Position numbers and translations under genes: made by a program. DNA of 64,000 nt. It comes from a virus. The stretch lies in IMG/VR virus record IMGVR_UViG_3300040771_000047, positions 1 to 64,000 of that record; one strand, written 5' to 3'. Of this stretch, positions 35,188 to 54,714 are shown piece by piece. A model generated the notes under the pieces. That model did not search any database. It was not told where the DNA came from and saw nothing but the letters and a program-made list of their open reading frames with translations. The stretch's first letter is position 1; every line of letters begins with the position of its first letter.

Positions 35188-35188
35188 A

Positions 35189-35882: not shown

Positions 35883-35886
35883 AATT

Positions 35887-36108: not shown

Positions 36109-36110
36109 TT

Positions 36111-38054: not shown

Positions 38055-38072
38055 GATTAATATGAACCTTTC

Positions 38073-38115
38073 CAATGTATGTTTATACATTGTTGCTTAC
38101 AGTAAACTACTGTAA
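38073..38115 (+). promoter_or_regulatory. Two adjacent eight-base hairpins
   Basis: CAATGTAT-GTTT-ATACATTG (38073-38092) and TTACAGTA-AAC-TACTGTAA (38097-38115) lie between polymerase and SF2 helicase genes. Neither is followed by a T run, so they look like mRNA processing or stabilising elements. Confidence 0.45.
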
Positions 38116-38146
38116 ACATACCAACACGTTACTTAAAAATTTTGTT

Positions 38147-39424: not shown

Positions 39425-39633
39425 TTACAAAATTTTTACAATTTACAAATAGTAAATTAAAAGCAGTGGATAAGCAAATTCTTCTTACAATTGATAACCC
39501 AGGTTCTATTGTTAGTCATAAAAAAACAATGGTAATCCACCCTGAGAATAAGACTTTCACTCAAGAAGAAACACAAAAAATAACTGAATTATTAACTAAA
39601 ACTAAAGAAAATGGAAATAAATCCAATGATTAG
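39421..39633 (+). CDS. Small protein, unknown
   Basis: 70 residues, basic and beta-rich at the start, acidic helix at the end. Both ends overlap the neighbours. Not recognised. Confidence 0.5.
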   Translation: MITKFLQFTNSKLKAVDKQILLTIDNPGSIVSHKKTMVIHPENKTFTQEETQKITELLTKTKENGNKSND

Positions 39634-40159
39634 AGAAACTTTAAGAAGTTTTAGTATTACTGAGGAAGATGGTATAGCATATTTGCTTTCTATTTACTTT
39701 GATTGTAGACCTTCTTATGTACCTACTATTTTAGTTCAAAAGATGAATGTTACTAATATTCTTGGTTTAGATGATGATAGACTTTTGAAATGGAATATCC
39801 CATTGTTTGACACAACTGTAGAAGGTATAGGTAAATGGGACTGGGTACATCTTTGGATGGAAGGTTTTGCTAGAATTAATAAGTCTAGAAAAGGTACTAA
39901 ATCTACTTGTGTATCAAGAATGAAGATATTTTTCTCTCAAAATCCTGATGTAAGAAAAGAAGAAGTACTTGGTGCCACTGAATTATACTTTAGAAGTGTA
40001 AGTGATCCAGAATATATTTTTACTTCACACTATTTCATATTTAAAGACAAAGGTGCAAACAGAACTTCTGCACTAGAACAATGGATAGAGACTTACAGGG
40101 AGTCTGTACAAGAAACACCTACTAGTAATAGAGTACACATTTCAAATCAAATGCAATAA
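39611..40159 (+). CDS. Replication-block protein of unknown function
   Basis: 182 residues, helical, with WIPLFDTT and KWDWVHLWMEGFARINKS in the middle. It overlaps the previous and next genes. A helicase-loader role would fit its place just before the DnaB-like gene, but no motif proves it. Confidence 0.5.
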   Translation: MEINPMIRETLRSFSITEEDGIAYLLSIYFDCRPSYVPTILVQKMNVTNILGLDDDRLLKWNIPLFDTTVEGIGKWDWVHLWMEGFARINKSRKGTKSTCVSRMKIFFSQNPDVRKEEVLGATELYFRSVSDPEYIFTSHYFIFKDKGANRTSALEQWIETYRESVQETPTSNRVHISNQMQ

Positions 40160-41295
40160 TGAATGTAATAGAGAAGTTCAACGAAGGACAGAGGGGAACC
40201 AATAAAGGTTTGTCTATGGGAGAAGGATTAAAAGCTATCTCTCTTGCTATTAATGGTATTCAAAAAGCAAGGGTATATACTGTAGCCGCAGGACCTAAAG
40301 TTGGTAAATCTACTTTAGTTGATGTTGGCTTTGCTATAGAACCTTGTTTGGATGCTATGGAAAACAATATTCCTTTTGAGTTGATTTACTTTTCTTATGA
40401 AATTGATAGAGTAAGTAAGGAGTTTGATTTTATTGCTCACTTCATTGCTAGAGATTATGGAATTACAGACATATCTTTAGCAGAAGGAGTTACTTATAAA
40501 GGTGAGAAAACTGTTCCTTTGGAAGCGGGCTATCTTATGGGTCAAGTACAAGACGACAATGGAAAAATTATAAAAGTTAGTCCTGAAGTCTTTACTATGA
40601 TAAAAGCAGTTTACATGAACAGAATTATACCTTTATTTGGTGAATTTGGAGAAGATGGTACTCAGATTAAACCTGGAATCATTACCTTTATAGACAATAG
40701 AGAGAACCCTACAGGAATTAGAAATAAGCTCATTACTCATGCTAAAACTGAAGGAAAGTTTGTCTATGAAAATAGTGTAGGTTCAGGTGGAAAGCAGTTC
40801 CAAAGAATGGTAGGTTACAAGCCAAACAATCCTGCAAAAATGACTCTTATTATTACTGACCACTTAAGAAAACTTATTCTAGAAAGAGGTTTTACCCTCA
40901 AGCAAACAATTGATAAGTTTGCAGAATATTCTACTGAATTAAGAAATAGTTGTGGTTATTCATTTGTCCATATTATCCATTTAAATAGAAATATGGCAGA
41001 TATTAAGAGAATGCAGTATTCTGATGATAGACTTTTTCCAACTGCAGATGATATTAAGGAAACAGGTAACTTAAGTGAAGAAAGTAACTACATATTCACT
41101 ATGTTTAACCCTAATGATGATAAGTACAATCTTAAGAAACATTTTGGTCTAATGCTTAAAGATGTAAAGAATAACTTATTACACCCTAATATCAGAACTA
41201 TTCATTTAGTAGAAAGTAGGCATTGTGCTTACCCTCAACATTTTAGAGTTAACATGTTAGGTGCCACAAAACAATTTAAACAATTAACAATTTAA
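40159..41295 (+). CDS. DnaB-like replicative helicase (RecA-type ATPase)
   Basis: 378 residues. Walker A is at about 48-55 (GPKVGKST), with the Walker B region LIITDHLRKL and the long segment HIIHLNRNMADIKRMQYSDD, ending in a block with KETGNLSEESNYIFTMFNPND. This is the SF4 DnaB-type layout, lacking an obvious N-terminal primase-binding domain. It should move on the lagging strand together with the primase at 43573. Confidence 0.75.
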   Translation: MNVIEKFNEGQRGTNKGLSMGEGLKAISLAINGIQKARVYTVAAGPKVGKSTLVDVGFAIEPCLDAMENNIPFELIYFSYEIDRVSKEFDFIAHFIARDYGITDISLAEGVTYKGEKTVPLEAGYLMGQVQDDNGKIIKVSPEVFTMIKAVYMNRIIPLFGEFGEDGTQIKPGIITFIDNRENPTGIRNKLITHAKTEGKFVYENSVGSGGKQFQRMVGYKPNNPAKMTLIITDHLRKLILERGFTLKQTIDKFAEYSTELRNSCGYSFVHIIHLNRNMADIKRMQYSDDRLFPTADDIKETGNLSEESNYIFTMFNPNDDKYNLKKHFGLMLKDVKNNLLHPNIRTIHLVESRHCAYPQHFRVNMLGATKQFKQLTI

Positions 41296-41300
41296 TTTTT

Positions 41301-42020
41301 ATGTCAGAAGTTCAAGAAGCAGTAACACCTGCAGCAGTTTCAGTAGCACCTTCAAAGGTGAGGTCCATTTGTATAGACACTCTCACAGCTATACAGAATG
41401 AAGAATACATGAGAGACAAAAAGAAAGCAGGACATGATAAGTGGAAGGATTACGGTCAAGACATTTACAGTTTTAATGCTGACTTACAAGCTTTGGGGTT
41501 TGAGTTAATCTTAGTTTTGGGAGAGCCTGGTACAGGTAAATCTTCAGGAATGAGAACTTTACACCACAATAGTAATATCTGGTACAATACAGATAACAAG
41601 AATCCTACTTGGCAAGGTGGTAGAGAAGAATATGGTAGAAAAGTTGCACCGAGAGCACCTTTCCATATTATTCCTAGTACTTATTCTGAGATTATCCAGC
41701 ACATTCAAATGGGTCTTGAAAGAGGTATGTTTGAACAGGATAGGTTTGCTTTTATTAGTGGTCATACTGAAACTTACAAAGTAGGTAATGATACCAAAGA
41801 AAGATTAAAAATTCTTGGTACTATGGGTACTAAAATGCAATTAGAGGGTAAAATGGAATCTGTTTTCTATAGTAGAGTAGAGAAAGTGGGTTCTGATGTA
41901 AGCTTCTTTTTAGAAACTCAGAATAGTGGTTTTAATACTGCTAGAAGTCCTCAAGGTTTATTTGAAGGAAAGATAGAAAATGACTATCAAATGATTTTAG
42001 ATAAACTACTAACTTACTAA
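41301..42020 (+). CDS. RecA/Sak4-like ATPase with permuted motif order
   Basis: 239 residues. A Walker B-like segment (RSICIDTLTAIQNEEYM, about 22-38) comes first, followed by WKDYGQDIYSFNADLQALGF and only then by Walker A (GEPGTGKSSGM, about 76-86). In Sak4/RecA-type ATPases Walker A comes first. The later HTETYKVGND and TARSPQGLFEGKIENDY blocks match Sak4-like proteins. It is probably a circularly permuted single-strand-annealing or recombination ATPase. Confidence 0.6.
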   Translation: MSEVQEAVTPAAVSVAPSKVRSICIDTLTAIQNEEYMRDKKKAGHDKWKDYGQDIYSFNADLQALGFELILVLGEPGTGKSSGMRTLHHNSNIWYNTDNKNPTWQGGREEYGRKVAPRAPFHIIPSTYSEIIQHIQMGLERGMFEQDRFAFISGHTETYKVGNDTKERLKILGTMGTKMQLEGKMESVFYSRVEKVGSDVSFFLETQNSGFNTARSPQGLFEGKIENDYQMILDKLLTY

Positions 42021-42023
42021 AAC

Positions 42024-42230
42024 ATGAGTACTCAAACACAAGAATTAATGCCACTTATAATTGCTATTGCAATATTATTAGGTGTAATTATTGGAGCAAC
42101 ATTTGTTGTTTTAAATACCAAAAGAATCTCTAAACAAGATGAAGAAGAATTTGCAGAGTTTCTTTATAAGAAAGAACTTAGAGCAAGAGATTTGCAAAAA
42201 CAAGCTAAGGATTTAGCAAACAACTATTAA
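42024..42230 (+). CDS. Small membrane protein, unknown
   Basis: 68 residues. One N-terminal hydrophobic helix (about 8-29), then a long charged helix. A membrane anchor for a cytoplasmic coiled coil. Position alone links it to replication. Confidence 0.55.
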   Translation: MSTQTQELMPLIIAIAILLGVIIGATFVVLNTKRISKQDEEEFAEFLYKKELRARDLQKQAKDLANNY

Positions 42231-42255
42231 TTTAAACAATTTTTATACATATATT

Positions 42256-42648
42256 ATGTCAGAATTACAAGAAGGTACTCAACAAGTACAAAGTGAAGCT
42301 ATTGCTCCAAGACCACAAGTTAGAATTTCAGATTGTAAGCGTATGCTTAAAGAAGGTATGGACAGAAAGGCTATTGCAGCTCATTATGGTATTCCTGCTT
42401 CAGCTATGGCTGAGAAAGTTTGGTCACACCCTGAACTAAAGGGATTGAAAACTAAGAAAATCTATGAGATAGATTTGATTGATGACACTCTAGTTGAAGA
42501 AGTTGCAGAAGTTGCGGAACTTGCGGAACTTGCGGAAGTGGTAGATGAAGAGTTAGTTACTACTGAAGCTAATGTTGCTTTTAGTGATATGCAAGCTGAA
42601 GTAGGTGAGACTGAAGTTGCAACTACTGTTAATGATTGGGGAAATTAA
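42256..42648 (+). CDS. Helix-turn-helix protein with acidic repeat tail
   Basis: 130 residues. Residues 21-56 look like a helix-turn-helix (CKRMLKEGMDRKAIAAHYGI). The C-terminal half is acidic with VAE/ELAELAE-type repeats and ends NDWGN. It might bind DNA at an origin or regulate the next gene. Confidence 0.5.
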   Translation: MSELQEGTQQVQSEAIAPRPQVRISDCKRMLKEGMDRKAIAAHYGIPASAMAEKVWSHPELKGLKTKKIYEIDLIDDTLVEEVAEVAELAELAEVVDEELVTTEANVAFSDMQAEVGETEVATTVNDWGN

Positions 42649-42714
42649 TCATAGATTAAAGATTACGCATACAAAAACTAAATTTCAATATTAACAATAA
42701 TAAATTTAAAAATT

Positions 42715-43518
42715 ATGTCAGAAACGACAAGTCCTCAAATTCAAGGTTACGGGTATACTTCAGATAATGATGAAGCTTTAAAAACTAAATCAGGTGGTAG
42801 ATTTGGGTTAAATGCAGGTACTGCAGTATTGGCTAAATTTGCTTACAATCCTAATACAGCAAAAGAAGGTCAAGAAATAAGAGAAGCTATTGAGATTACA
42901 GTAAAAGTTGGTGATAGAGATTATCCTATGTGGATTTCTCCTGTTACTAGAGTTTATGTTAAGAATCAAGAGTACACTGAGTTTACTACTCCAGAAACTA
43001 TTGCTGCAGTAAATGCAGAAATGAAGCAACAACAAGCAGTAATTACTCATATTGTGAAGTCTCAAGGTGTTACTGATGCACAGTTACAAGCTGCATTATC
43101 TTCATCTCCTATTACATCTTTTGCTGACTATGCTAACAGATTATGTTCAGTGTTACCAGCAGGTTTTGAAACTAGGGCATTAGATGTATTCTTAGAGTAT
43201 CAATGGGATTTTGGTAAAAAAGCTGATGGTACTTTGAATGACAAAACTTATGCTCAATTGCCAAAGAACATGAAAGGTGGTTACTTTATTGTACCAGCTC
43301 AATCTGGTGTATGGGTTGCATCTCTTGCTGCTGATGGTGCTTTGTCTTATAAAAATGCAAATGGTGTAACACACCCTATTGAAAAAGATGCAGCTTTTAT
43401 GGAAGGTAAGAAAGGTACTCAGCAAGTTGTAGGACAAGCAGTTAAACCTGTAGGTACTGCAGCCATTACTCCTATTGCTCCGGGTGCAGCAACATCTTCT
43501 ACTTGGGATAATGTATAA
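42715..43518 (+). CDS. Single-strand DNA-binding-like protein (tentative)
   Basis: 267 residues, Ala/Thr/Val-rich and beta-rich, highly expressed by look. It ends with a low-complexity Ala/Pro tail and STWDNV, an acidic tip of the kind seen in SSB proteins. It is separated by its own leader and lies directly before the primase. The call is by position and tail only. Confidence 0.4.
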   Translation: MSETTSPQIQGYGYTSDNDEALKTKSGGRFGLNAGTAVLAKFAYNPNTAKEGQEIREAIEITVKVGDRDYPMWISPVTRVYVKNQEYTEFTTPETIAAVNAEMKQQQAVITHIVKSQGVTDAQLQAALSSSPITSFADYANRLCSVLPAGFETRALDVFLEYQWDFGKKADGTLNDKTYAQLPKNMKGGYFIVPAQSGVWVASLAADGALSYKNANGVTHPIEKDAAFMEGKKGTQQVVGQAVKPVGTAAITPIAPGAATSSTWDNV

Positions 43519-43572
43519 TTAATTATTTTCTTAATCTCTTTTGTTCTAAGTTTGTCTTCCTAAATAATATTT

Positions 43573-44619
43573 ATGAAACAATATGGATTTATCTCCGACA
43601 AGTTAAGTAGAAGAGGTTTTATTAAAAAGGAAGATATTCTTGCTGTTATAACCCAAGAGGAGATTTTCAAGTTAGTTTTTAAAGAACTTCCTATAGAATT
43701 TAAATATGTAAAGTCCCCTTTTCGAGAAGACACTAATCCTGGATGTTGGTTTCATTATAATATTGATGGTAAATTAAGATTTACAGATTTTGGTAATCCT
43801 GCCGTAATCAATGGCATATCTATGGGTAACATAGATTGCTTTGATTGCGTACAGGTTTACTTTAAACTTGCAAACTTTTATCTTACACTAGAGTTTATCT
43901 TTAATCACTTAATCAAAGGAAAAAATGTTGACACTGACAATAGAATAGAAATTCAGGTTCAAAAGAATGAAAAGAAGGCTGTAAAAATATTAATTGAACC
44001 TAGACTATTTAATTCAAAAGATGCTGCCTATTGGACTTCTTATGGAGTTAGTAAAGCACAATTAATAGAGGATAAGGTTTTCCCAATTTCAAGGTACCAT
44101 GCTTTAAATACTAAATTTGGTAACTTTAGTTCTAGTTGTCCTGATATATCCTATGCCTACACAGAGTTCAAAGAAGGGAGGAAAAAACTATACTTCCCCC
44201 AGAAGGAAGGCAATAAAAGATTTCTTACTACCTGCAGTAAAGAAGATGTAGGTGGTACTACTTCCTTATCTTATGGTAAACAATTAATCATTTCTAAAGC
44301 CTATAAAGATTATAGAGTACTGAAGAATGAAGGTAAAAATGTCAAGTGGCTCCAAAATGAAGGCATGGTTCCTAGCTTAGATAACTTAACTGAGTTGGTT
44401 AAAGATTTCAAGAACGTTATTGTTTTCTTTGACAATGATGAGACAGGTATTAAAGCTTCCAAGGACATTACAGACATTATTAACTCAATTTCTAGAGGTA
44501 AGGCTAAATCTTTACATCTTCCTGAAAGATTGCTTAGTGAAAAGATTTCTGACCCTTCAGATTTATTCTTAAGGAGAGGTAAAGCATCATTAACTAACTT
44601 TTTAAATACTTTTACATAA
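43573..44619 (+). CDS. DnaG-like primase
   Basis: 348 residues. The N-terminal zinc-site-like part has SPFREDTNPGCWFHYNIDGK and GNIDCFDCVQVYF. The C-terminal TOPRIM domain has KQLIISKAYKD and VIVFFDNDETGIKAS (FFDNDETG near 285-292), the acidic catalytic patch. It makes RNA primers for the lagging strand. Its stop is directly followed by ung. Confidence 0.8.
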   Translation: MKQYGFISDKLSRRGFIKKEDILAVITQEEIFKLVFKELPIEFKYVKSPFREDTNPGCWFHYNIDGKLRFTDFGNPAVINGISMGNIDCFDCVQVYFKLANFYLTLEFIFNHLIKGKNVDTDNRIEIQVQKNEKKAVKILIEPRLFNSKDAAYWTSYGVSKAQLIEDKVFPISRYHALNTKFGNFSSSCPDISYAYTEFKEGRKKLYFPQKEGNKRFLTTCSKEDVGGTTSLSYGKQLIISKAYKDYRVLKNEGKNVKWLQNEGMVPSLDNLTELVKDFKNVIVFFDNDETGIKASKDITDIINSISRGKAKSLHLPERLLSEKISDPSDLFLRRGKASLTNFLNTFT

Positions 44620-45348
44620 ATGAACCCCTTTGAACAATTTCATCCTTCTTGGAAACCTATTATTGGGTTACTACATCAAGGACTTTTAGCAGAGCTTAGT
44701 GCAGACATTCTGCCTAACTGCGTGTATTACCCACAAAAGGAAAACATCTTTAGAGTTTTCAGAATGCCTTTAGATAAGATTAAGGTAGTTATATTAGGTC
44801 AAGACCCTTATCACGGACCCGGCCAAGCAAATGGTTTATGTTTTGCAGTAGATGGACTTAGCAGAGTTCCTCCTAGTTTAGAGATAATATCTAAAGAACT
44901 GACTAATCAAGGATTGAAAGAAAGTCATAATTATGACACTCCTTGGAAGACTTTAGCACATTGGGAAAAACAAGGTGTATTCTTGCTAAACACTGCATTA
45001 ACAGTTGAATCAACTAAACCTGGAAGTCATATAAAGTACTGGGAAGAGTTTATTAGTAAAGTAATTACCTTTATTGCTCATAACCAACCCTGTATGTGGT
45101 TACTTTGGGGTAAGAAAGCTCAATCTTACACTACTCAAATACCACATAAGACTATCTTTGACGTGAAGAACTATAGTAAAGAAACTATAGAAGGAATACC
45201 TACTAGCCCTTATTTTAACTATATTTTGAAAGCAGCTCATCCTGCTGCAGAATGCTATCAAAGCAATGCAGGATTTTTAGGATGCAATCACTTTTATTAT
45301 GTTAACAAAATCTTGACGAAAAACAATCAAGTAAAAATCAATTGGTAA
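44620..45348 (+). CDS. ung: Uracil-DNA glycosylase (Ung family)
   Basis: 242 residues. The catalytic motif is VVILGQDPYHGPGQANGLCF, with D62 as the water-activating Asp. The second motif is HPAAECYQSNAGFLGCNHF, the leucine-loop region, where canonical enzymes have HPSPLS. It removes uracil from DNA. Together with ThyX and the dNMP kinase it suggests a phage that tries to keep its DNA uracil-free, or that removes host uracil-DNA. Confidence 0.85.
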   Translation: MNPFEQFHPSWKPIIGLLHQGLLAELSADILPNCVYYPQKENIFRVFRMPLDKIKVVILGQDPYHGPGQANGLCFAVDGLSRVPPSLEIISKELTNQGLKESHNYDTPWKTLAHWEKQGVFLLNTALTVESTKPGSHIKYWEEFISKVITFIAHNQPCMWLLWGKKAQSYTTQIPHKTIFDVKNYSKETIEGIPTSPYFNYILKAAHPAAECYQSNAGFLGCNHFYYVNKILTKNNQVKINW

Positions 45349-45367
45349 AAAATAAAAAACAATTAAA

Positions 45368-46234
45368 ATGTCAGAATCAAATACAAATGCTGTAGAGAAT
45401 ACTCCAGTTTCAAGAACTATTACTATTTATGCAACAAGAGGTAACTCAGAGCCTGTTGACATTATTTCATCTGCAGTTACTTGGGGAGATTTTATTCCTG
45501 AAGTAAAGAAAGCAGGTTACTCTGTAGATAAAGTGTTATGTACAGAAAGCCATACAAGAATGGATTTAGTTAACAAATTAGCTATCTTACCTCTTGTAGA
45601 CTTTACAATCTTTATTAGAAATAAAGAAACTAAGTCAGGTGCAACAGAACTAAGCTACAAACAACTTAGAGCTGCTATTGCTGGATTTATGTCTGAAGAT
45701 TTTAACAGAGCAAAAGCTCACTTTGGTAACTACACTACTAAAACTACAGTTCTCTTAAGAGAATTGCATGCTTCTTATTCTCCTGCTGTTGTAGAAGAAG
45801 AGCAAGTGGAAATGAATGAAGTAGAAACTAATGTTGCTGATGTAGTTGAATCTGTTAAAGATTCTAAAGTAATCTACATTACTAACTCTGGTAGAATTGA
45901 AAAGATTTCAGCTTTACTTGCAGGTGTTACAGCTTGTACTACAAATGAAGAAGTTCTTGAAAGAATTGAAATCATTGAAGGAGAGATTGAAGGTCTTAGA
46001 GAAGCTGTTAATTCAGATGATACAGAAATTCTTATGGAAGCTGAAACAGCTCCTGTAGCAGAGGTTCCTGTCTTTGATGCTGAAGCTGAAGGGAGAGCTC
46101 AAGCAGTTGCAGAAGCTAAAGCTAAAGAAGAAGCTAAGATGGCTGAAGAAGCTGAATTAGCTAGACTTGCAGCAGTAGCTAAGCAAATCAGAAAAGATGC
46201 TTTGGCTTCTCAAGCTAGAGAGTTAGGTTTATAG
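45368..46234 (+). CDS. Ubiquitin-like (beta-grasp) protein with helical C-terminus
   Basis: 288 residues. Residues 17-91 have the strand-helix-strand pattern of a beta-grasp domain (TITIYATRGN, then a helix PEVKKAGYS, then VLCTESHTRMD and DFTIFIRNKETKSG). A glycine sits at 91, at the end of the domain, where a ubiquitin-like protein would be joined or cleaved. The rest is acidic and helical, with an Ala/Glu-rich coiled coil. It is the first gene of the E2-JAB-E1 cassette. The fold is inferred from pattern. Confidence 0.45.
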   Translation: MSESNTNAVENTPVSRTITIYATRGNSEPVDIISSAVTWGDFIPEVKKAGYSVDKVLCTESHTRMDLVNKLAILPLVDFTIFIRNKETKSGATELSYKQLRAAIAGFMSEDFNRAKAHFGNYTTKTTVLLRELHASYSPAVVEEEQVEMNEVETNVADVVESVKDSKVIYITNSGRIEKISALLAGVTACTTNEEVLERIEIIEGEIEGLREAVNSDDTEILMEAETAPVAEVPVFDAEAEGRAQAVAEAKAKEEAKMAEEAELARLAAVAKQIRKDALASQARELGL

Positions 46235-46258
46235 TAATTTGCAATTTATTTATATAAT

Positions 46259-46292
46259 CAAAAGTGAGAGCAGAAATGTTCTCACTTTTTTA
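46259..46292 (+). terminator. Terminator after the ubiquitin-like gene
   Basis: Stem AAAGTGAGA with TTCTCACTTTT and a run TTTATTTTTT. It would limit read-through into the E2-like gene. Confidence 0.75.
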
Positions 46293-46302
46293 TTTTTTAA
46301 CT

Positions 46303-47523
46303 ATGAATATAACATCAAATTTTAATTACAATGAAAGAAGGCTAGGTCTTCCTTTAGATAGAATAGTACATTCTGCTAGACTTTTGTCCTTAACTAAGGA
46401 TAAGAAATGGTTACATAAAATTATAGATAGAGGTTTAATACGAACTTGGGATGAAGGTATTATTGTAGAAAGTGATTCACAAAAAGATAGACTTAAAGCT
46501 TTTATTGACATAATGATAGAAGGTTTTTCTAGAAGATATGGAAACAATTGGGATGTACACTTATCAAAAGTAAACAATAGACAGTATACCATAAATTTCT
46601 TTACCATATTTCCTAGTACTACTATCACTAATAGAGATGGAAACAGTCATGTTATTAAGGATTTAATAGTTCTTTTTCCTATTGCTTGCTCAACGGATGA
46701 TAACTTTTATATCACTAGAATACAAGGTGGTAGAGCTACTTATTATCAGAAAGAGCTAGATAATCAATATTCTCACAGCCATTTAAGAAGTAGTGTTTCT
46801 GGGATTTCAGTAGATGAGCCTTTCTATACAAATGACTTTTGTATTGGAGCAGGTGATTTATCTTTTCTAGAAGGTGTATTACGTAATAATTTTAATGTCA
46901 GAGACTTAGAAGCTTATCTTTATGAAATAGATGCTACAATTCAATGGGAAAGTATTGAAGGTACTCCTTATAAACATATTAGAGACCTTACTTCTACTAG
47001 AAGTAGTATTGTAAGAGAAGGTTCTTATAGTGTTTCAGGTTTTACTAGCAATTTCTCTAATGATTTAGATGTAGACTTCTATATTAGTAACAATACCTAT
47101 AAGATAAAGTTCAATAGTACTTTTAAAAGTTTTATAAGAAGTATTTTAGACCAAAATCTTAGTGAATATGGTTCATTACGACATGACATACTATGTGTTT
47201 ATAATCCTGTAACTAGAAGGTATTACAGAGCAGAAAGTTCACAAACACAAGAAGGCTACATTCCAGACATTCGTACCTATGGAGGAGAAAATGCTTACAC
47301 TATTTACAATGGTCAGAAAAAGTATTTTTCTATCAAAGCTACCCCAATAAGAGCAAATGCTCCACAAGAAGTTTATATTATTTACCCTAAATTCTTAAAA
47401 GATGTCCACACCCAATTTGAAAAATTACTCCACGAAAAAACCGTTAGACAAAGTGCAATTAGCAAATATCATTCCGCTGAATATCAGTCTTCCTATTCTA
47501 CACAAAATTCAGTTTCTTTGTAA
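46303..47523 (+). CDS. E2-like protein of a ubiquitin-like cassette (tentative)
   Basis: 406 residues from the ATG at 46303, right after a terminator. Features of prokaryotic E2-like proteins are visible: beta-strands with HVIKDLIVLFPIACS, a His pair YSHSH (H158, H160) and NDFCIGAGDLSF with C180 as the candidate catalytic cysteine. The C-terminal half is long and unrecognised. It would transfer the ubiquitin-like protein from the E1 at 48567. The final 40 codons overlap the JAB gene in another frame. Confidence 0.45.
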   Translation: MNITSNFNYNERRLGLPLDRIVHSARLLSLTKDKKWLHKIIDRGLIRTWDEGIIVESDSQKDRLKAFIDIMIEGFSRRYGNNWDVHLSKVNNRQYTINFFTIFPSTTITNRDGNSHVIKDLIVLFPIACSTDDNFYITRIQGGRATYYQKELDNQYSHSHLRSSVSGISVDEPFYTNDFCIGAGDLSFLEGVLRNNFNVRDLEAYLYEIDATIQWESIEGTPYKHIRDLTSTRSSIVREGSYSVSGFTSNFSNDLDVDFYISNNTYKIKFNSTFKSFIRSILDQNLSEYGSLRHDILCVYNPVTRRYYRAESSQTQEGYIPDIRTYGGENAYTIYNGQKKYFSIKATPIRANAPQEVYIIYPKFLKDVHTQFEKLLHEKTVRQSAISKYHSAEYQSSYSTQNSVSL

Positions 47524-48583
47524 AAGTATACCAAAAGTAGAATGGTCAGGTGTATTATTTTACTCTGTAACAGGAAGTATTAAAGACCCGACTAACTTTA
47601 AAATTGAAATTGAAGATATATTACCTTTAGATGTAGGTACTTCAGTTTTTACTTCCTATGATTTAGATAATAGATTTATTGATTATCTTATGGAAGACCC
47701 TAAAAGAATGAAATTTAAAGTAGGTCACATTCATTCTCATAACATTATGAGTGTATTCTTTTCAGGTACAGACATGGAAGAACTAAATGACAGTGCTTCT
47801 GCTTACAATTACTATCTTTCTTTGATTGTAAATAACTATATGGACATGACAGCTAAAGTAGCTTTTGTTGCTAATGCTACTGCTACTATACAGAAAGTAG
47901 ACTATGTTTCATTAGATGAAAATGGTAAGCCTTTTAGCATGTCACAAAAGGACTTTACTTTTGAGAAAGAAATTCTTTATATGTATGATTGTGGTATTAC
48001 AGTACCTAGTATAGATATTGTAGTAGAAGATAGTTTTGCTAAAAAAGTGGCAGTTTTATTGGTACCAAAACCTGTAGTTAAACATGTTCCAATAAAACCT
48101 TTAATTCCTGTAGTAAATAGAATTCTTCCTGTGCATACTCCAAAAGGAGCTCCTCAATCAAGTTTAAACAAGTATAAAGATTTCTTTAGTGGTTCTGAGT
48201 TTAGTTCTTTAGCTGATTTAATAGATGATGAAGATGATGAAGACTATGAAGAATCTGCTGAGAAACTACTTAGTTTTGCTACTTCTCTTTTTAGTAACTC
48301 TACTCAATTACTTTCAGATGAAACATTAGATGAAGTTCTATTGTCTTTACTTGATATGGAAGTAGACCCTACAGACATTGCTAAAAAAGTTCTAGATGTG
48401 TATGCTACTAATTACAGCAATCAGTTCCCTGAAAAAGATGATGTAGATTTTATTGCAGACACTTATGAAGTCTTAGATATTCTATATGATGTGCCAAGTG
48501 CACTTACAACACTTACTAACCCAACTATCAGAGTTATAGAAATGATGGTTAAAGCTTTTCAATCAGATGCAAGAACAGTTTAA
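47402..48583 (+). CDS. JAB/JAMM metalloprotease
   Basis: 393 residues. The JAMM motif is complete: E47 in VEWSGVLF, H111 and H113 in GHIHSHNIM, S121 and D124 in SGTDMEEL, that is HSH-x7-S-x2-D. JAB proteases cut isopeptide bonds of ubiquitin-like proteins. After residue 210 an acidic, helical C-terminal domain follows. The start is 122 bases inside the previous gene and those 40 residues (LDKVQLANIIPLNISLPILH) look like real JAB N-terminal sequence, so both frames are probably used. Confidence 0.8.
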   Translation: MSTPNLKNYSTKKPLDKVQLANIIPLNISLPILHKIQFLCKSIPKVEWSGVLFYSVTGSIKDPTNFKIEIEDILPLDVGTSVFTSYDLDNRFIDYLMEDPKRMKFKVGHIHSHNIMSVFFSGTDMEELNDSASAYNYYLSLIVNNYMDMTAKVAFVANATATIQKVDYVSLDENGKPFSMSQKDFTFEKEILYMYDCGITVPSIDIVVEDSFAKKVAVLLVPKPVVKHVPIKPLIPVVNRILPVHTPKGAPQSSLNKYKDFFSGSEFSSLADLIDDEDDEDYEESAEKLLSFATSLFSNSTQLLSDETLDEVLLSLLDMEVDPTDIAKKVLDVYATNYSNQFPEKDDVDFIADTYEVLDILYDVPSALTTLTNPTIRVIEMMVKAFQSDARTV

Positions 48584-49244
48584 TAGATTTAAAGACGCAC
48601 CTTGGTTCCCTAAAGATAGGGAATCTGTATTAATTGGTGGCGCAGGTGGTATAGGAAGTTGGTTAACTTTCTTTCTAGCCAGAATAGGTTTTAGTCCTAT
48701 TGTTTATGATTTTGATACCATTGAAGAACACAATCTTGGAGGTCAACTTTTTAGAAAAGAAGATGTTAACAAGCTTAAAGTATTGGCATTAGCTGATATT
48801 ACTAGAAGTTTTTGTAATACAGAGATAACTACTTTTACTGAAAAGATAGACTTAGACTCTCCTACTCATTACTTTATGTTCTCAGCTTTTGACAACATGA
48901 AAGCCAGAAAAGATGCTTTTGAAGTATGGAAAAGAAGTATTCCAAATTGTCCTGTAACTCCTATCTTTATTGATGGTAGATTAGAATTAGAGCAGTTACA
49001 AATATTTGCAGTAACCCCTAATAGAATTGCAGAGTATGAAGCTCATTTATTTGATGACAGTCAAGTAGAAGACTTACCTTGTACGCTAAAGCAATCCTCT
49101 CATACTGCAGCTATGATTGCTTCTCACATGGTTGGTACATTTACTAATCATATTACTAACTTGTATACAAGAAGAAATATTAGAAGTGTTCCTTTTTATT
49201 ATGAGTTCTATACTCCTATGGCATTAACAACTTTAAATGATTAA
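48567..49244 (+). CDS. ThiF/E1-like adenylyltransferase
   Basis: 225 residues. The nucleotide loop is GGAGGIG (24-30), with D48 and D50 in YDFDTIEEHN, then NLGGQ at 56-60 where most E1/ThiF enzymes have NLxRQ, so the arginine finger is missing. A later block is FSAFDNMKARKDAF and a candidate catalytic cysteine C172 lies in LPCTLKQSS. E1 enzymes activate the C-terminus of ubiquitin-like proteins. It overlaps the JAB gene by 17 bases. Confidence 0.8.
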   Translation: MQEQFNRFKDAPWFPKDRESVLIGGAGGIGSWLTFFLARIGFSPIVYDFDTIEEHNLGGQLFRKEDVNKLKVLALADITRSFCNTEITTFTEKIDLDSPTHYFMFSAFDNMKARKDAFEVWKRSIPNCPVTPIFIDGRLELEQLQIFAVTPNRIAEYEAHLFDDSQVEDLPCTLKQSSHTAAMIASHMVGTFTNHITNLYTRRNIRSVPFYYEFYTPMALTTLND

Positions 49245-49247
49245 ATT

Positions 49248-50255
49248 ATGTTAGAAATACATACTGAGACATATGGAAGTTTTGATAGGGATAACAGTAA
49301 GCCTGCTAATCTTGTTAGTAATAACTTCTTTCCTCTTATATCTATTAATTGCTTAAGAATGGAAGGTAATCAAGAAGAAAATTTTACGCAGACTTATTAC
49401 AAACCTAGCATAACATCTTCAGTTAGAACTAAGGCTTCTTCTAGTAAAAACATTTTACATAGTTTAAATGACGAAGCTCAAGTCACAAAGTATCTTTTTG
49501 GAGATAAAGTGTATTATATTAACAAAGGATTGGTAACAGACTCATTGGGTAAAATTTTACTTATACTTACTATTAAAAAAGAAGTTTTAGTAGAGTACGA
49601 TTACTTAAAAAGAAATACTTTTCATCACACTCATGCTAGATTTAGCTATGATAACTTTGTTTTGTTTATTTCTAGTGAGATGTCCTGTAACCCTTTACAT
49701 TCAGTATTTTACAGAAGAATACAAAAAAATTACTTGAGTTTTTGCTACGAAAAAGGAATGGAGGTACGTACAGTACCTTCTTCTGTAATAGAAAAGAATA
49801 CCTTTGCAAATTCACTTAACCTAAGATTTAACTCTATTACAGAGTTAGACTACCACCTTAGAAATGAAGTAAAGTATTTCTTAAATGCTGATGAAGGAGA
49901 ATCTGTAACGCGTGCTCTACAAATTAATATACCACCTGTAGACATGGAAGAAGATGTGGAAGTACTGAATGAAGCATCTAATGTGTCTAATGTAGAAGCT
50001 GTACAAGAAAGAATATTAGAGTTACAAGATTTAGCTACTGCTTCAGTTGGAGTACCTGCTTCATATCTTAATGACAGTACTGATAGTGTAACTTCTGGCT
50101 ATATTTCAGGAATTGATTATTACAATAATCAAGTAACTACTTCTTCTTCAATAAGTACAGATAGTATAATGGCTATGTCAATGGCTATGAATACTGCAGT
50201 TAGAACACCTACAGTTGAGCCTGTAGTTGTGGATGATGATATTATAGAATTTTAA
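49248..50255 (+). CDS. Unknown protein of the ubiquitin-like cassette
   Basis: 335 residues, not recognised. The N-terminal 200 residues are mixed alpha/beta with FHHTHARFSYDNFVLFIS in the middle, and the C-terminal part is disordered and Ser/Val-rich. It follows the E1 gene by three bases. It may correspond to the extra proteins of PRTRC-type cassettes. Confidence 0.45.
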   Translation: MLEIHTETYGSFDRDNSKPANLVSNNFFPLISINCLRMEGNQEENFTQTYYKPSITSSVRTKASSSKNILHSLNDEAQVTKYLFGDKVYYINKGLVTDSLGKILLILTIKKEVLVEYDYLKRNTFHHTHARFSYDNFVLFISSEMSCNPLHSVFYRRIQKNYLSFCYEKGMEVRTVPSSVIEKNTFANSLNLRFNSITELDYHLRNEVKYFLNADEGESVTRALQINIPPVDMEEDVEVLNEASNVSNVEAVQERILELQDLATASVGVPASYLNDSTDSVTSGYISGIDYYNNQVTTSSSISTDSIMAMSMAMNTAVRTPTVEPVVVDDDIIEF

Positions 50256-50296
50256 GAATAAAGGTATTGTAAGTTTATAATTTGTTAATAAGTAGA

Positions 50297-50824
50297 ATGA
50301 CTTACATGGGAATAGGAAAAATAAATAAGATGATGGGGAGTGAAGCAGAAATTATGTACTCTTTATTCTTTAAGGATTTAGGCTTCAGAAACTGTATACC
50401 TTCTCGTCATGTTAGTGCTAAGCATGATAATGCTAAAATAGATTTAATGAATATACCTTTTAATGTACAAGTTAAAGCAGGTAAACAAACAAACATGAAT
50501 CCTGGGAAGGAGTTGTTGTCAATGCAACATTGTATTGACCTCATGTTTGATGATGACGATGCTATAACATTAAAACCTAACATACTGATTCATTACATTA
50601 CAGTAGAAAAGGACAAAGAAAGGTTGCCTGAACATGAGATAGTTTATATGTCATTACAGCAATATGATTACTGGAGAAGTATGGGTTCAAAACTAGAATA
50701 TCTTGGAATGAGAGAATTTAGGTTTGAACTAAACTCTGAATTTAAGACCATTGTGTGTGTGACTTTAGAAGTTTTTAAAAAAGAAATCATAATAAAACAT
50801 TATCAGAATGGTAATAATAACTAA
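50297..50824 (+). CDS. PD-(D/E)XK-like resolvase or nuclease (tentative)
   Basis: 175 residues from ATG 50297; a TTG at 50282 would add five residues. The central AKIDLMNIPFNVQVKAG resembles the D..(Q/E)xK active site of Holliday-junction resolvases and Mrr-type nucleases. The lysine is present and the second acidic residue is replaced by Gln. Overlaps the RecB-like gene by 17 bases. Confidence 0.45.
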   Translation: MTYMGIGKINKMMGSEAEIMYSLFFKDLGFRNCIPSRHVSAKHDNAKIDLMNIPFNVQVKAGKQTNMNPGKELLSMQHCIDLMFDDDDAITLKPNILIHYITVEKDKERLPEHEIVYMSLQQYDYWRSMGSKLEYLGMREFRFELNSEFKTIVCVTLEVFKKEIIIKHYQNGNNN

Positions 50825-52079
50825 TCAAGAGTTAATACAAGAATATTTTGCATCTCCAGCTATAGGACAATCTACATTAAAGAAACTTCTAGGAGGTCTT
50901 CCAGGCTTTCATAAAGAAGTAGACTCTTCAGCATCACATTTTGTGCTAGGTTCTGCTGTAGATTGCATATTAACAGCAGAAGAAGGAGAATTTGAGAGAC
51001 AATATTATGTTTCTAATGTTGAAAAGAAGCCATCAGATGCTATTGTAGCTATACTAAGTGTAGTTCATGCCAGATTGTTGGAAGATTATCAAGAGTATTT
51101 ATCTGTAACTATTCCAGACACATCAGGTAAAGAAGCAGATTGGGGTTGGGAAAACCTAGAATCTAATGAAGTTACCGGCTTAATTAAAGAGGTTATAGCA
51201 ATTTCATCATTTGTAGAATTTGTAGACACTTTATCTAATTGGGAAACTTATTTACTAGATGCTGCTTCAGAAATGGATTGGCAAAGAACTTGGGGAGATG
51301 CTGCTAAAATTAAGAATTTAGTAAATGAAAGAAATGAAGAATACTTTCTTGACCTTTGTCAAGCTTATGGTAAAAGTATACTAGACAATAGACAAAATGA
51401 AACTGTTTGGAATATTGTTAGGTCCCTTCAAAATAATCCAAGAACTGCTAGGTTCTTTAATAGAGCAGGAATAAGTGAAAACCCTTTAGTAGAAGTTTAC
51501 TATCAATTTCCTATTTATTTTGAACACAAAGGAACATCTTGTAAAGGTCTTTTAGACATGGTAGTTGTAGAGAAGTCTATAGACACGGCTATTGAAGGAG
51601 TAGAAACTGACCCTTATATCACATCTATTATTCCTATAGATTTCAAGACTATGTTTGATGACACATATAACTTTATGGCTTCACTGAAGCTTAGAAGATA
51701 TGATATTCAAGCCGCTTGGTATACTTTAGGACTTCATAAATGTTTTAACATAAGTGAAGATTCAAACATAGTAAAACCTTTTATCTTTGTAGTAGAAAGT
51801 ACCACTTTTCAAGGAAAACCTCTAGCTTATGAGCTTACAGATGAGGTACTTAAAATTGGGAGGTATGGTAGAGCAGCTGTAAAAATAGTAGAATCAGCTT
51901 TTACATTTTCTGAACAGCCTACACAATTCACTATACAGAAAAAGGTTCTAGGTTTTGAAGACCTTATAGATGATTACATTTTCTATGAAAATAATGGATG
52001 GCATGAAGAAAAACTAATTCAAGCTTCAGGTACTAACCCTATCTTACTATCTTGGGATGGTATAGTTGACATGTCATAA
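50808..52079 (+). CDS. RecB-like exonuclease (PD-(D/E)XK)
   Basis: 423 residues. The start (QSTLKKLLGG, FVLGSAVDC) and the active-site region (GLLDMVVV near 245, then IIPIDFKTM near 275 with D and K) and a DIQAAWYTL helix match phage RecB/exonuclease VIII-type proteins. They resect DNA ends for single-strand annealing. It pairs with the RecA/Sak4-like ATPase. Confidence 0.7.
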   Translation: MVIITNQELIQEYFASPAIGQSTLKKLLGGLPGFHKEVDSSASHFVLGSAVDCILTAEEGEFERQYYVSNVEKKPSDAIVAILSVVHARLLEDYQEYLSVTIPDTSGKEADWGWENLESNEVTGLIKEVIAISSFVEFVDTLSNWETYLLDAASEMDWQRTWGDAAKIKNLVNERNEEYFLDLCQAYGKSILDNRQNETVWNIVRSLQNNPRTARFFNRAGISENPLVEVYYQFPIYFEHKGTSCKGLLDMVVVEKSIDTAIEGVETDPYITSIIPIDFKTMFDDTYNFMASLKLRRYDIQAAWYTLGLHKCFNISEDSNIVKPFIFVVESTTFQGKPLAYELTDEVLKIGRYGRAAVKIVESAFTFSEQPTQFTIQKKVLGFEDLIDDYIFYENNGWHEEKLIQASGTNPILLSWDGIVDMS

Positions 52080-52082
52080 ATT

Positions 52083-52667
52083 ATGAAAATAGAAATAGGA
52101 AAAGTTTTCCCTAACAAAACTGTTAAGTATTTGTTACCTAGTCTTAAACTTCTAGGAGATGATTTTAAAGCTAAATTTAATCTAGTACATGTACTAGCAT
52201 CAGGAGTACATGATACTCTTATGGATGGTACTCCTTATGAAGGGCAAAGACTAGTTTATCTTTTACTGGATAAGTTAGTAAAACCTACTTTATTTAAAGG
52301 TTTTCTTTCTTGGGTAAAACTTCAACCTTATTATGCTCTTGATTATTCATTTGATAATTTTGAAACAGGAAGAATGCACATGATTGCATTAAGCTATCCT
52401 GAAAAATATGCAGATGCTTATGATAAGTTTATATTAGGTAAATATAGTAAAATGTACACCAAAGATGAAGTAGTAGAGTTTTTTGGTGCAAATAGAGAAG
52501 ATGCTAAAAGTGTTATTAATAAGTCAGCTAAATCAGGTGAAAAACATGTGATTAATTTGAATCTTACTTATAACTCTAGCATAACTTTAACAGATTTGTT
52601 ACATGAAGGAGGAGAGCATGATTTCCCACCTCAAGAAGAACAAGAAGTATTTAATTTTAAAAAATAA
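52083..52667 (+). CDS. Recombination-block protein, unknown
   Basis: 194 residues with helices and a basic middle; KMYTKDEVVEFFGANREDAK is helix-turn-helix-like. Not recognised. Lies between the exonuclease and the HU/IHF gene. Confidence 0.5.
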   Translation: MKIEIGKVFPNKTVKYLLPSLKLLGDDFKAKFNLVHVLASGVHDTLMDGTPYEGQRLVYLLLDKLVKPTLFKGFLSWVKLQPYYALDYSFDNFETGRMHMIALSYPEKYADAYDKFILGKYSKMYTKDEVVEFFGANREDAKSVINKSAKSGEKHVINLNLTYNSSITLTDLLHEGGEHDFPPQEEQEVFNFKK

Positions 52668-52701
52668 ACCTCGCTTGCATAGGTCAAAGCTAATCTACAT
52701 T

Positions 52702-52956
52702 ATGAATAACAACCAAAAACTAACTGCTGCTGTACAAAAAGTTACAGGGCAAACTAAAGTACAGGCAGAAGAAAGCATTCAAGCAGTTCTAACATCAGTA
52801 AAGAATTTAGCTATTGAAGATGGTAAAGTAACTATACAAGGTTATGGTACATTTTCTAATAAGTTAAGAGCTGAAAGAGAAGGTAGAAATCCTATGACAG
52901 GAGCTACAATTACTATTGAAGCAAAAGAAGTTTTTAGCTTTAAAGCTTCTAAATAA
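52702..52956 (+). CDS. HU/IHF-type DNA-bending protein
   Basis: 84 residues from ATG 52702, preferred over an upstream start that runs into the previous gene. The family signature is clear: GRNPMTGATITI in the DNA-grasping arm, with a helical start KLTAAVQKVTGQTKVQAEES. A bending protein helps replication or packaging. crAss-like phages are known to carry such genes. It is closed by a strong terminator. Confidence 0.85.
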   Translation: MNNNQKLTAAVQKVTGQTKVQAEESIQAVLTSVKNLAIEDGKVTIQGYGTFSNKLRAEREGRNPMTGATITIEAKEVFSFKASK

Positions 52957-52968
52957 TTAACTAAAAAA

Positions 52969-53008
52969 AACAGAGTGAGAGTGTGCGTAACCTCACTCTG
53001 TTTTATTT
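52969..53008 (+). terminator. Terminator after the HU/IHF gene
   Basis: Stem CAGAGTGAG (52971-52979) with CTCACTCTG (52992-53000), then TTTTATTTTA. Confidence 0.8.
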
Positions 53009-53024
53009 TAAAATCTAAATTAAA

Positions 53025-53159
53025 ATGGCTAAATTTTATTACGAATGTAAGAGTTGTGGGGAAGATTTTGATTCTTCATCAGCAGAAGTAGTGTGTACAG
53101 AGTGTTTAAGTAGTAACATTGTAGGAGGAGAAATAAGGGAGGAAGAAGATGATAATTAG
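53025..53159 (+). CDS. Zinc-ribbon protein (44 residues)
   Basis: ATG at 53025 to TAG at 53159. Two CxxC pairs (ECKSCGED and CTECLSSN) with an acidic end make a clear zinc ribbon. It overlaps the start of the kinase gene by 11 bases. Function unknown. Confidence 0.6.
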   Translation: MAKFYYECKSCGEDFDSSSAEVVCTECLSSNIVGGEIREEEDDN

Positions 53160-53934
53160 TATATCTGGAAAAATAGGTTCTGGAAAGGATACAGTAGGTA
53201 GGATTATACAATACCTTGAGAATCCTATAATTACTACAGCAGATATAGTTAAAGCTCTAAAAGATAAAAATAGAAGTTATAAAAGTACTTCTTTTGAAAT
53301 CAAGAAATGGGCAGGTAAACTTAAAGATATTACTTGTATTTTACTTAACTGTACTAGAGAGGACCTTGAAGATTCTGATTTTAAGAATAAAGAATTAGAA
53401 GAAGAGTGGTGGTATTACACTAATAGTATAGAAATGTTTTCTTTTTTAAATAATCAAAAAGAACTAGACCATGAATATTATTTAGTTAAACTTACACCTA
53501 GATTACTTCTTCAACTACTTGGTACTGATTGTGGTAGAAATATTATACATCCTAACATATGGGTAAATGCTTTAATGAGTGAGTATAAAGGTTGGTTTGA
53601 TGAACAAGGGGTTGTAATAGACAATAATACAGGTAGAAAAATGAAATATCCTAATTGGATTATTACTGACACTAGATTTCCTAATGAATTAAAAGCAGTG
53701 CAATCTAAAGGAGGTTTGAATATTAGAGTTAAAAGACCTAAACCTCTTATAAAAACAGGGAATAAAACAACAGATGATGTACTTAATCATACTAAAAATT
53801 ATGGTATAGTAGAACATGAATCAGAAACAGCATTAGATCAAGCTGAATTTGATTATGTTATTTACAATACTGGTACTATTCAAGATTTACTTAAAGAGAT
53901 AAAAGAAATATTAACACAAGAAAAAATTATTTAA
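53149..53934 (+). CDS. Deoxynucleoside monophosphate kinase
   Basis: 261 residues. Walker A is SGKIGSGKDTVG at 6-17. Later WIITDTRFPNELKAV and the RVKRPKPL segment are typical of T4 gene 1-like dNMP kinases. It would phosphorylate dNMPs to feed replication. It lies immediately after a zinc-ribbon frame. Confidence 0.75.
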   Translation: MIISISGKIGSGKDTVGRIIQYLENPIITTADIVKALKDKNRSYKSTSFEIKKWAGKLKDITCILLNCTREDLEDSDFKNKELEEEWWYYTNSIEMFSFLNNQKELDHEYYLVKLTPRLLLQLLGTDCGRNIIHPNIWVNALMSEYKGWFDEQGVVIDNNTGRKMKYPNWIITDTRFPNELKAVQSKGGLNIRVKRPKPLIKTGNKTTDDVLNHTKNYGIVEHESETALDQAEFDYVIYNTGTIQDLLKEIKEILTQEKII

Positions 53935-53935
53935 G

Positions 53936-54259
53936 ATGTCATACAAAATTATAACTACAGTATCTAAAGTAGTAGAAACAACAACAGAAGTAGAAGTTAC
54001 TTTAGTGGGTTATGTTGGGTCAAGAATCAAAATGTACAGAGAGCAACTAGGTTTGAAGCAAATAGATGTTTCTCGTAAAACTATACAACCAGATGGTTCA
54101 TGTGCAATTTCAGCTGGAACTGTTTCTTACCTAGAGAGTGGTATAGGAAATCCAGGTATTAACAATTTAGAAGAAATAGCTAGAGTTTTAGGAGTTCATA
54201 TCTCTGATTTATTTCCTAAAAAAGAAGGAGAAGTTGAATCTGATTTAACAACTATCTAA
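53936..54259 (+). CDS. XRE-type helix-turn-helix regulator
   Basis: 107 residues with the HTH at about 27-80: SRIKMYREQLGLKQIDVSRK, AISAGTVSYLESGIGNP, ARVLGVHISDLF. The wording is that of Cro/CI-type and Bacteroidota XRE regulators. It may control the middle or late genes. The C-terminus is acidic. Confidence 0.75.
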   Translation: MSYKIITTVSKVVETTTEVEVTLVGYVGSRIKMYREQLGLKQIDVSRKTIQPDGSCAISAGTVSYLESGIGNPGINNLEEIARVLGVHISDLFPKKEGEVESDLTTI

Positions 54260-54260
54260 G

Positions 54261-54506
54261 ATGACTATAAAAACTAAATTTAACATAGGAGATGTTGTAT
54301 GGGTTATACATGGAACTGTAGTTCAATCAGCTTTTGTAAGAGAAATTGATATAAGAGTTACAGGTACCTATGGACATTTAAGGTATAACCTTGGTAACAC
54401 TGCTACAACTAGTTCAAGACTTCAAGATGCTTCTATACATGGGACAAAAAACTTCTTAGAAGAGAATTTGTTTAAGTCAAAAGTTCTACTTGTAAAATCT
54501 TTATAA
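54261..54506 (+). CDS. Small SH3-like protein, unknown
   Basis: 81 residues. The pattern KFNIGDVVWVIHGT, then IDIRVTGTYGHLRYNLG and EENLFKSKVLL is a small beta-barrel seen in many phages without known function. Confidence 0.5.
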   Translation: MTIKTKFNIGDVVWVIHGTVVQSAFVREIDIRVTGTYGHLRYNLGNTATTSSRLQDASIHGTKNFLEENLFKSKVLLVKSL

Positions 54507-54507
54507 T

Positions 54508-54714
54508 ATGAGTGAATTAACTGAAGGACAAAAGAAAGGATATTTAAGAGACCCTAATGAATGTCCTTATTGCATATCTGAAAATATTGAAGTAATAAGT
54601 GACTTTGATTATGAAACATTAAGCACAACTGTAGCATGTCGTGATTGTAGTAAGACATGGAGTGATTGTTATACCTTAACAGATGTAGAAGGGAGTGTGA
54701 CAAATGACACCTAG
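54508..54714 (+). CDS. Zinc-ribbon protein
   Basis: 68 residues. CPYCISENIEV (a CxxC) and CRDCSKTWSDC (a second CxxC) flank a short beta core. Its stop overlaps the next start. Confidence 0.55.
   Translation: MSELTEGQKKGYLRDPNECPYCISENIEVISDFDYETLSTTVACRDCSKTWSDCYTLTDVEGSVTNDT

Follow-up and report, generated by a model that had tools for sequence, protein, structure and literature searches.

Why does a crAss-like phage carry genes that resemble a ubiquitin-like conjugation cassette, and on which proteins might such a cassette act? The genes occupy positions 45368-50255 of the window, by which we mean the 64,000 nucleotides from position 1 to 64,000 of IMG/VR virus record IMGVR_UViG_3300040771_000047 (89,262 bases in full). 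They are arranged in the order ubiquitin-like protein (Ubl) precursor, E2-like protein, JAB protease, ThiF/E1 enzyme and unknown protein X. We favor, with reasonable confidence, the reading that they encode a reversible ubiquitin-like conjugation system of the phage's own, which probably acts on replication proteins. A predicted cassette of beta-grasp modifier, E2, JAMM protease and E1 is well supported by sequence comparisons and structure models.

An earlier, sequence-only reading of the window had listed five open reading frames (ORFs), adjacent and partly overlapping. All five are present on the + strand at the coordinates given there. Two pairs overlap: E2 and JAB share 122 nt (47402-47523), JAB and ThiF 17 nt. 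The genes and their key elements are the following.

45368..46234, + strand: Ubl precursor, 288 residues, a beta-grasp domain followed by a variable tail of 197 residues (PHROG 15560, unknown function)
45413-45640, + strand: beta-grasp domain, residues 16-91, ending in K-S-G91
46303..47523, + strand: E2-like conjugating enzyme, 406 residues (PHROG 15310)
46774-46782, + strand: codons of H158-S-H160 within the E2-like gene
46840-46842, + strand: codon of the predicted catalytic Cys180 within the E2-like gene
47402..48583, + strand: JAB/JAMM metalloprotease, 393 residues, with E47, H111, H113, S121 and D124; predicted Ubl-trimming and de-conjugating enzyme
48567..49244, + strand: ThiF/E1-like activating enzyme, 225 residues, with nucleotide loop G25-G30, D48/D50, K71 and D109
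49080-49082, + strand: codon of E1 Cys172, the predicted acceptor cysteine
49248..50255, + strand: protein X, last gene of the set, fast evolving (PHROG 15446)

The phage had been taken to be crAss-like, and the searches agree. The terminase, portal and major head protein of the window match PHROG families with E below 1e-200. Of the 150 phage records retrieved with the terminase, many are crAss-like, and the nearest terminases (77-78% identity) belong to Flavobacterium psychrophilum phages of the Fpv group. Pfam recognized ThiF alone among the five cassette proteins (7.7e-16) and gave no match above cut-off for Ubl, E2, JAB or X. All five proteins fall in PHROG families without known function.

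The set recurs in many phages. The window ThiF matched 78 phage records by tblastn, including 29 Flavobacterium phages, 29 named Bacteroides phages, 12 uncultured phages and Dulem virus 41. Among the Bacteroides phages are the cultured crAss001 (gp76) and DAC15; crAss001, from the human gut, carries the set as gp79-gp75. Four Xanthomonas/Erwinia jumbo phages gave more distant matches. The seven crAss-like relatives examined in annotation are all Steigviridae. A profile scan of IMG/VR yielded 244 contigs, the best 80 of which were used, and a pattern-based scan of one genome per species (84,980 species) yielded five loci (L048-L052). Three of the five (L048, L049 and L050) hold the phage-type set in whole or in part and are presumably phage contigs in metagenome-assembled genomes (MAGs).

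We analyzed 103 loci, all selected by E1 alone, and found the other genes with hidden Markov models (HMMs). E2 and JAB accompany E1 in 97 of the 103, and 92 have a recognizable Ubl; the order Ubl-E2-JAB-E1 never varies. E2/JAB are missing at two contig ends (L049, L100) and beside four distant ThiFs (L010, L012, L051, L052). Ubl alone is missing at the contig ends L033, L060, L061 and L093, and in L043 an unrecognized 80-residue ORF occupies its position. Protein X was found downstream of E1 in 65/103 loci. The E2 and JAB ORFs overlap in 91/97 loci and the JAB and E1 ORFs in 70/97, though some overlaps may be overstated because starts were taken as the first possible codon. The locus counts are not independent, since some contigs are near copies of one another.

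Deposited records mostly label the phage E1 'thiamine biosynthesis protein', Ubl and E2 'hypothetical' and JAB 'metalloprotease domain', as for crAss001 gp77. Read literally, the E1 label describes an ordinary thiamine-biosynthesis gene beside unrelated neighbors. We reject this explanation as having practically no chance of being correct. ThiF strictly co-occurs with Ubl, E2 and JAB, the ThiF equivalog cut-off is missed (53 bits vs 159), no thiamine gene was found among the scanned neighbors, and the gene order contradicts it.

Conservation was counted in window numbering on alignments that include the window, with identical proteins and ORFs cut at contig ends removed beforehand. Across about 80 distinct relatives, G91 of Ubl, H160 and C180 of E2, the JAMM residues and C172 of E1 are kept at 99-100%. 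This pattern is not due to chance, because the invariant columns hold across 35 Ubls and about 80 distinct relatives.

The Ubl protein had been described as ending in KETKSG, which was a misreading. The motif spans residues 86-91 of 288 and ends the beta-grasp domain, and the variable tail follows. G91 is kept in 81/81 rows, S90 in 77/81 and K89 in 79/81, and in an alignment of 35 Ubls only the motif glycine and one other column are invariant. No tail position is 80% conserved among the well-filled alignment columns. Nine distinct Ubls among 80 are short (106 residues or less). Seven terminate exactly one residue past the motif glycine, with A, E, E, I, K, K and R as final residues; the remaining two carry five extra residues (L103) and two (L008, whose gene is interrupted). 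A variable single residue past an invariant glycine looks like a ubiquitin-type precursor that requires proteolytic maturation.

The beta-grasp fold proposed for 45368-46234 was recovered by structure prediction. The AlphaFold model (26 alignment rows, pLDDT 78.7) shows a beta-beta-alpha-beta-beta arrangement, and its 50 listed PDB neighbors have Z of 8.4-9.0. Residues 1-76 of ubiquitin (1ubq) superpose on model residues 16-90, and Foldseek E values start from 7e-4. The neighbors carry titles such as ubiquitin, Rub1, UBX, DIX, FERM and similar domains; the title of one, a radial-spoke chain, is uninformative on its fold. The model indicates that Ubl has a ubiquitin fold, with the conserved C-terminal glycine at the end of the beta-grasp domain. 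By eye, a SAP/HeH-like helix-extended-helix domain appeared in the Ubl tail (window 45641-46231; L035, L038, L041 and L008:3551-3943). We do not claim it, because Pfam gives SAP weakly, in 2/9 proteins, at E of 0.05 (L038) and 0.22 (L035) only.

The E2-like protein is numbered from the ATG at 46303, and an in-frame GTG lies at 46264. Its relatives share 13-45% identity with it, and the key residues are still near-invariant: S159, H160, C180, G182 and G220 in 82/82 rows, E216 and S217 in 81/82 and R144 in 75/82. A His pair and C180 had been singled out as E2-like features. H160 and C180 withstand the comparison, but the pair does not, as H158 is kept in 68/82 rows and is Gln or Phe in 14/82. 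Classical E2s place HPN before the cysteine, as the phage E2 places His160. In the AlphaFold model (27 rows, pLDDT 80.6) a helix (58-79) leads into a meander of four strands (84-144) and the HSH motif; Cys180 sits in the loop after this motif and is followed by helices 185-195 and 199-213. Its best VIA-align matches are TSG101 (Z 6.5), UBE2S (5.3), UBE2K (5.2) and UFC1 (4.6). By title, 44 of 50 listed structural neighbors are E2, UEV or UFC1, a count in which we take Rad6 and Cdc34 to be E2s; the other six, not E2-type, are BRCA1-A and BRISC complexes and four Mediator entries. The E2 fold anticipated for 46303-47523 was therefore obtained as an E2/UEV-like model, with modest scores. A fold search of a viral structure library gave eight matches below 0.001, none functionally named, and a Faunusvirus E2 at rank 17 (E 0.24).

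The window JAB carries an exact HxHx7SxxD motif. H111, H113, S121 and D124 are kept in 85/85 rows and E47 in 84/84 ungapped rows, the single gap being L002, an interrupted gene. The complete JAMM protease proposed from E47, H111, H113 and D124 is borne out by these rows. In the E1, the GGAGGIG loop and C172 are likewise where they had been noted. K71, D109, R114 and D136 are kept in 87/87 rows, and C172 (gap in L097) and R138 in 86/87. A profile search of the PDB with the E1 matched UBA5, UBA6, MccB, MoeB and Cap2 structures; with the Ubl, E2 and JAB alignments it found no relevant structure. The E1 of crAss001 (L004:6560-7711, about 385 residues) and of some Steigviridae relatives has an N-terminal extension of about 150 residues, which is absent from the window's 225-residue E1.

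Three of the genes are interrupted in relatives. In Fpv1 an insert of about 1 kb, carrying an annotated endonuclease that looks LAGLIDADG-like by eye, lies directly before the HxH pair of JAB (L002:5056-6111) and is missing from near-identical Fpv3-type DNA. In cr106_1 an HNH ORF is inserted directly after the KSG of Ubl (L008:3019-3550), and in L026 a group I intron (Rfam, E 1.5e-21) follows the GGAGGIG of E1 (7715-7995). Mobile elements of these kinds tend to insert where a necessary gene is most conserved. Three insertions at catalytic motifs fit genes under strong constraint.

The E1 is a member of the ThiF/MoeB superfamily, and JAB, a ThiS/MoaD-like protein and E1 co-occur in sulfur-assimilation clusters (PMC1779556). 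Ubl might then be a ThiS/MoaD-like carrier trimmed by JAB, on which E1 makes a thiocarboxylate for nucleotide or tRNA thiolation. However, 97/97 JAB loci also have the E2-like protein with its Cys and His, H160 and C180 are invariant, and no sulfurtransferase was found among the scanned neighboring proteins. We regard sulfur transfer as very improbable.

Gene order, near-invariant active sites and predicted folds together support the core of the sequence-only reading, a Ubl conjugation cassette. In the pathway that we propose, JAB (47402) would cut the Ubl precursor (45368) after Gly91 and expose ...K-S-G. E1 (48567) would adenylate Gly91 and form a thioester on its Cys172. The Ubl would pass to Cys180 of E2 (46303), with His160 assisting, and E2 would attach it to lysines of target proteins. 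JAB could remove it from the targets again. Judging from the residues that would carry out cleavage, transfer and conjugation, covalent conjugation very probably occurs. It predicts Ser-Gly remnants (+144.05 Da) on lysines in infected cells, which can be checked in deep proteomes of infected Bacteroides.

Which proteins would be tagged? The genes around the cassette give an indication, based on database scans of window proteins.

33796..56209, + strand: surrounding replication/recombination module

The module includes a RecD-like helicase, a DNA polymerase, a superfamily 2 helicase, a weak DnaB-like match, a Sak4-like protein, a primase (43573) and a uracil-DNA glycosylase (UDG, 44620). Past the cassette it continues with exonuclease VIII (50808), a dNMP kinase and a UvrD helicase. 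HMMs placed a primase upstream in 79/79 of the IMG/VR cassette loci that extend more than 3 kb upstream of E2, and an exonuclease downstream in 57/64 of those that extend more than 4 kb downstream. UDG occurs in 58/86 IMG/VR cassette loci, upstream in 47. The cassette likewise comes after the primase in Fpv1, Fpv3, the seven Steigviridae and Dulem virus 41. UDG stands before the cassette in these Fpv phages and after it in the others, except that the neighbors in DAC15 are unlabelled. Elsewhere in the window, a phage-encoded tmRNA gene (31856-32277; Rfam RF00023, E 8.3e-23) has the tag VDTEELAVAA and is accompanied by a tRNA of odd anticodon (32646-32721).

Because the cassette sits between primase and exonuclease genes in two phage groups, replication/recombination proteins are the likeliest targets. 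That phage or host proteins of this kind are tagged, as gene order suggests, is a tentative assignment that we doubt slightly more than we believe. Tagging of replication factors would parallel SUMO or ubiquitin on eukaryotic replication factors. It is possible, if rather doubtful, that Steigviridae, Flavobacterium phages and environmental relatives run a complete SUMO-like pathway as a standing part of the replication module and regulate the replisome by tagging. The first reading had suggested shielding from defences or tagging of host or virion proteins; the place of the cassette points at least as well to replication/recombination proteins.

Several observations weigh against a conjugation system acting on replication proteins. 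The Z of 6.5 for the E2 model is under the 7-8 typical of models without a clear match, its Foldseek E exceeds 0.05, and E2 profile comparisons with PRTRC_B and with the E2s of L051 and L052 gave no significance. The spacer between His160 and Cys180 ranges from 11 to 38 residues across relatives, and classical E2s have a shorter one. Since Z stays under 8 and Foldseek E over 0.05, the E2 fold claim rests on consistency and the invariant Cys/His, with no single score to carry it. We regard the protein as a predicted E2 from its E2/UEV-like topology, weak by itself, together with those residues. In the E1, the Arg of the MoeB NLxRQ motif is missing; the position is Gly in 82/87 rows and Arg in 0/87. 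This suggests that adenylation may differ. The MoeB residues are those given in PMC12355090, and their mapping onto the phage motif was made here. As a speculation, R138 perhaps stands in for the absent Arg73 equivalent. The case for replication targets consists of gene order alone. Finally, none of the five cassette HMMs found a match (E 0.01) in about 13 kb around the primase of crAss002 (Intestiviridae) and cr115_1 (Suoliviridae); Fpv3, as a positive comparison in the identical test, matched all five. Some crAss-like phages can therefore do without the cassette beside the primase, and only certain lineages have it as a trait. The annotation of crAss002 does include a small 'UBA-like domain protein' (L117:12542-12649).

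An accessory trait of this kind would also be expected of a counter-defence or takeover device, in which Ubl is put on host proteins or defence components, or competes with Bil or CBASS immunity. Bacterial E1/E2/JAB sets do act against phages, as described for Cap2/Cap3 (PMC10097602) and Bil (PMC12129868), and a Bil-like system was reported in a Bacteroides phage-host study (PMC12135933). PADLOC E1-E2 models match the phage E1 weakly (best E 1.4e-7), which counts in the same direction. However, the cassette is constantly inside the replication module, and the PADLOC scan of neighboring window proteins gave helicase-type matches only. We consider counter-defence unlikely, and continue to favor a system that probably acts on replication proteins.

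Among the open-licence papers listed by our searches we found no description of the cassette; subscription surveys lie outside that scope, and priority is not claimed. ThiF, ubiquitin, JAB and related words are unmentioned in the text of the crAss001 paper and the Yutin 2021 paper. Ubiquitin-like conjugation in bacteria is best known from defence systems. If our reading is correct, a full Ubl pathway carried by a virus beside its replication genes reverses this defence-centered story. It would also offer a compact model, open to genetics, for studying an E1-E2-JAB cascade, and misleading 'thiamine biosynthesis' labels in gut phages could be replaced.

The cassette can be compared with several known systems, beginning with PRTRC, to which it had been likened at the outset. 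Six of the eleven plasmid PRTRC regions compared have A, and these run C-F-B-A-ThiF; apart from F, which the phage lacks, this is the phage order Ubl-E2-JAB-ThiF. Several plasmid cassettes adjoin ParB, dnaN, SSB or topA. Iyer et al. (2006; PMC1779556) predicted equivalent chemistry for PRTRC-type operons (operon type 6d). Order and chemistry thus agree, but the profiles agree in part. In hhalign comparisons, ThiF (Prob 99.2, E 1.3e-19) and JAB against PRTRC_A (Prob 76, E 2.2e-5) matched, whereas E2 against PRTRC_B (Prob 0.8), Ubl against PRTRC_C (0.2) and X against PRTRC_E and PRTRC_F did not. The PRTRC cut-offs (TIGR03735-03738) were missed by ThiF (31.6 of 144.75 bits) and PRTRC_A (11.7 of 101.8), and these models found no PRTRC B or C among the window cassette proteins; two plasmid PRTRC ThiFs, as positive controls, scored 251 and 367 bits. 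The window E2 did not match Prok-E2_D, which a positive control matched. In PRTRC_B a conserved His follows the Cys (PMC1779556), whereas in the phage E2 the invariant His160 precedes Cys180. PRTRC E1s keep the Arg (invariant in 11) and lack IDGR; phage E1s lack the Arg and have IDGR in 24/25 rows. The five-gene phage set includes none of PRTRC E, F and ParB, and general scans covering part of the window ORFs gave no ParB match.

An IQ-TREE analysis of 40 E1s, which carries a long-branch warning, above all for L012, separated the 25 phage E1s (branch 88/95) from the 11 PRTRC E1s (98/98). E1s of an archaeal MAG, a planctomycete MAG and a Xanthomonas jumbo phage group with the phages (95/87); they have IDGR or LDGR in common, and the NLxRQ Arg is missing from them. 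We reject PRTRC membership on the cut-offs, the order of the E2 motif and the separate E1 clades, although the gene order agrees.

Two of these E1s come from L051 (Thermoplasmata MAG, 4529-8639) and L052 (Planctomycetia MAG, 5924-8615), which hold Ubl-E2-JAB-ThiF operons in the phage order, with overlaps. Their Ubl ends in GA or GAR after a KxxG-type end, the E2 has HPH..C, and the E1 has IDGR, no MoeB-type Arg and a place beside the phages rather than PRTRC. They differ in Cys-rich, zinc-finger-like E2 ends, a second E2 gene in L051 and the absence of X, and represent two genomes. They are cellular-type operons, distinct from the phage-type set. The L052 genome (G001) has four ThiF matches.

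The jumbo phage PhiXhv-16 of Xanthomonas (L010:4754-8630) encodes ThiF, an 892-residue protein with an HPHM...CLGS E2-like motif and a 140-residue protein ending in ASGG. No JAMM pattern was found in this 16.5-kb locus, which is possibly a second phage Ubl system without JAB. In the 595-kb uncultured huge phage LR756511, a JAMM-motif ORF lies near ThiF (L012:5663-7588).

CBASS Cap2/Cap3 shares the E1, E2 and JAB chemistry, and Cap2 structures were among those matched by the E1 profile. Cap2/Cap3 demonstrates that bacterial E1, E2 and JAB can make up a conjugating set, for which one glycine at the C terminus is enough (PMC10097602). In Cap2 the E2 and E1 are fused, and what it conjugates is the C terminus of cGAS rather than a beta-grasp protein (PMC10097602), whereas the phage has separate E1 and E2 ORFs and its own Ubl. 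Defence models scanned against part of the window ORFs gave no CD-NTase match.

A captured Bil-type defence cassette, used against competing phages in superinfection exclusion, seems improbable to us. Bil operons also have separate genes in the order Ubl-E2-JAB-E1, and the BilD model matched the window E1 marginally (E 0.046) and the L010 jumbo-phage ThiF with E of 7.8e-6. However, no further Bil-named model matched the five window proteins at E 0.1, the phage E1s stand together as a separate group (88/95), and the cassette lies among replication genes. Bil is a bacterial defence, whereas the present cassette is carried by a virus.

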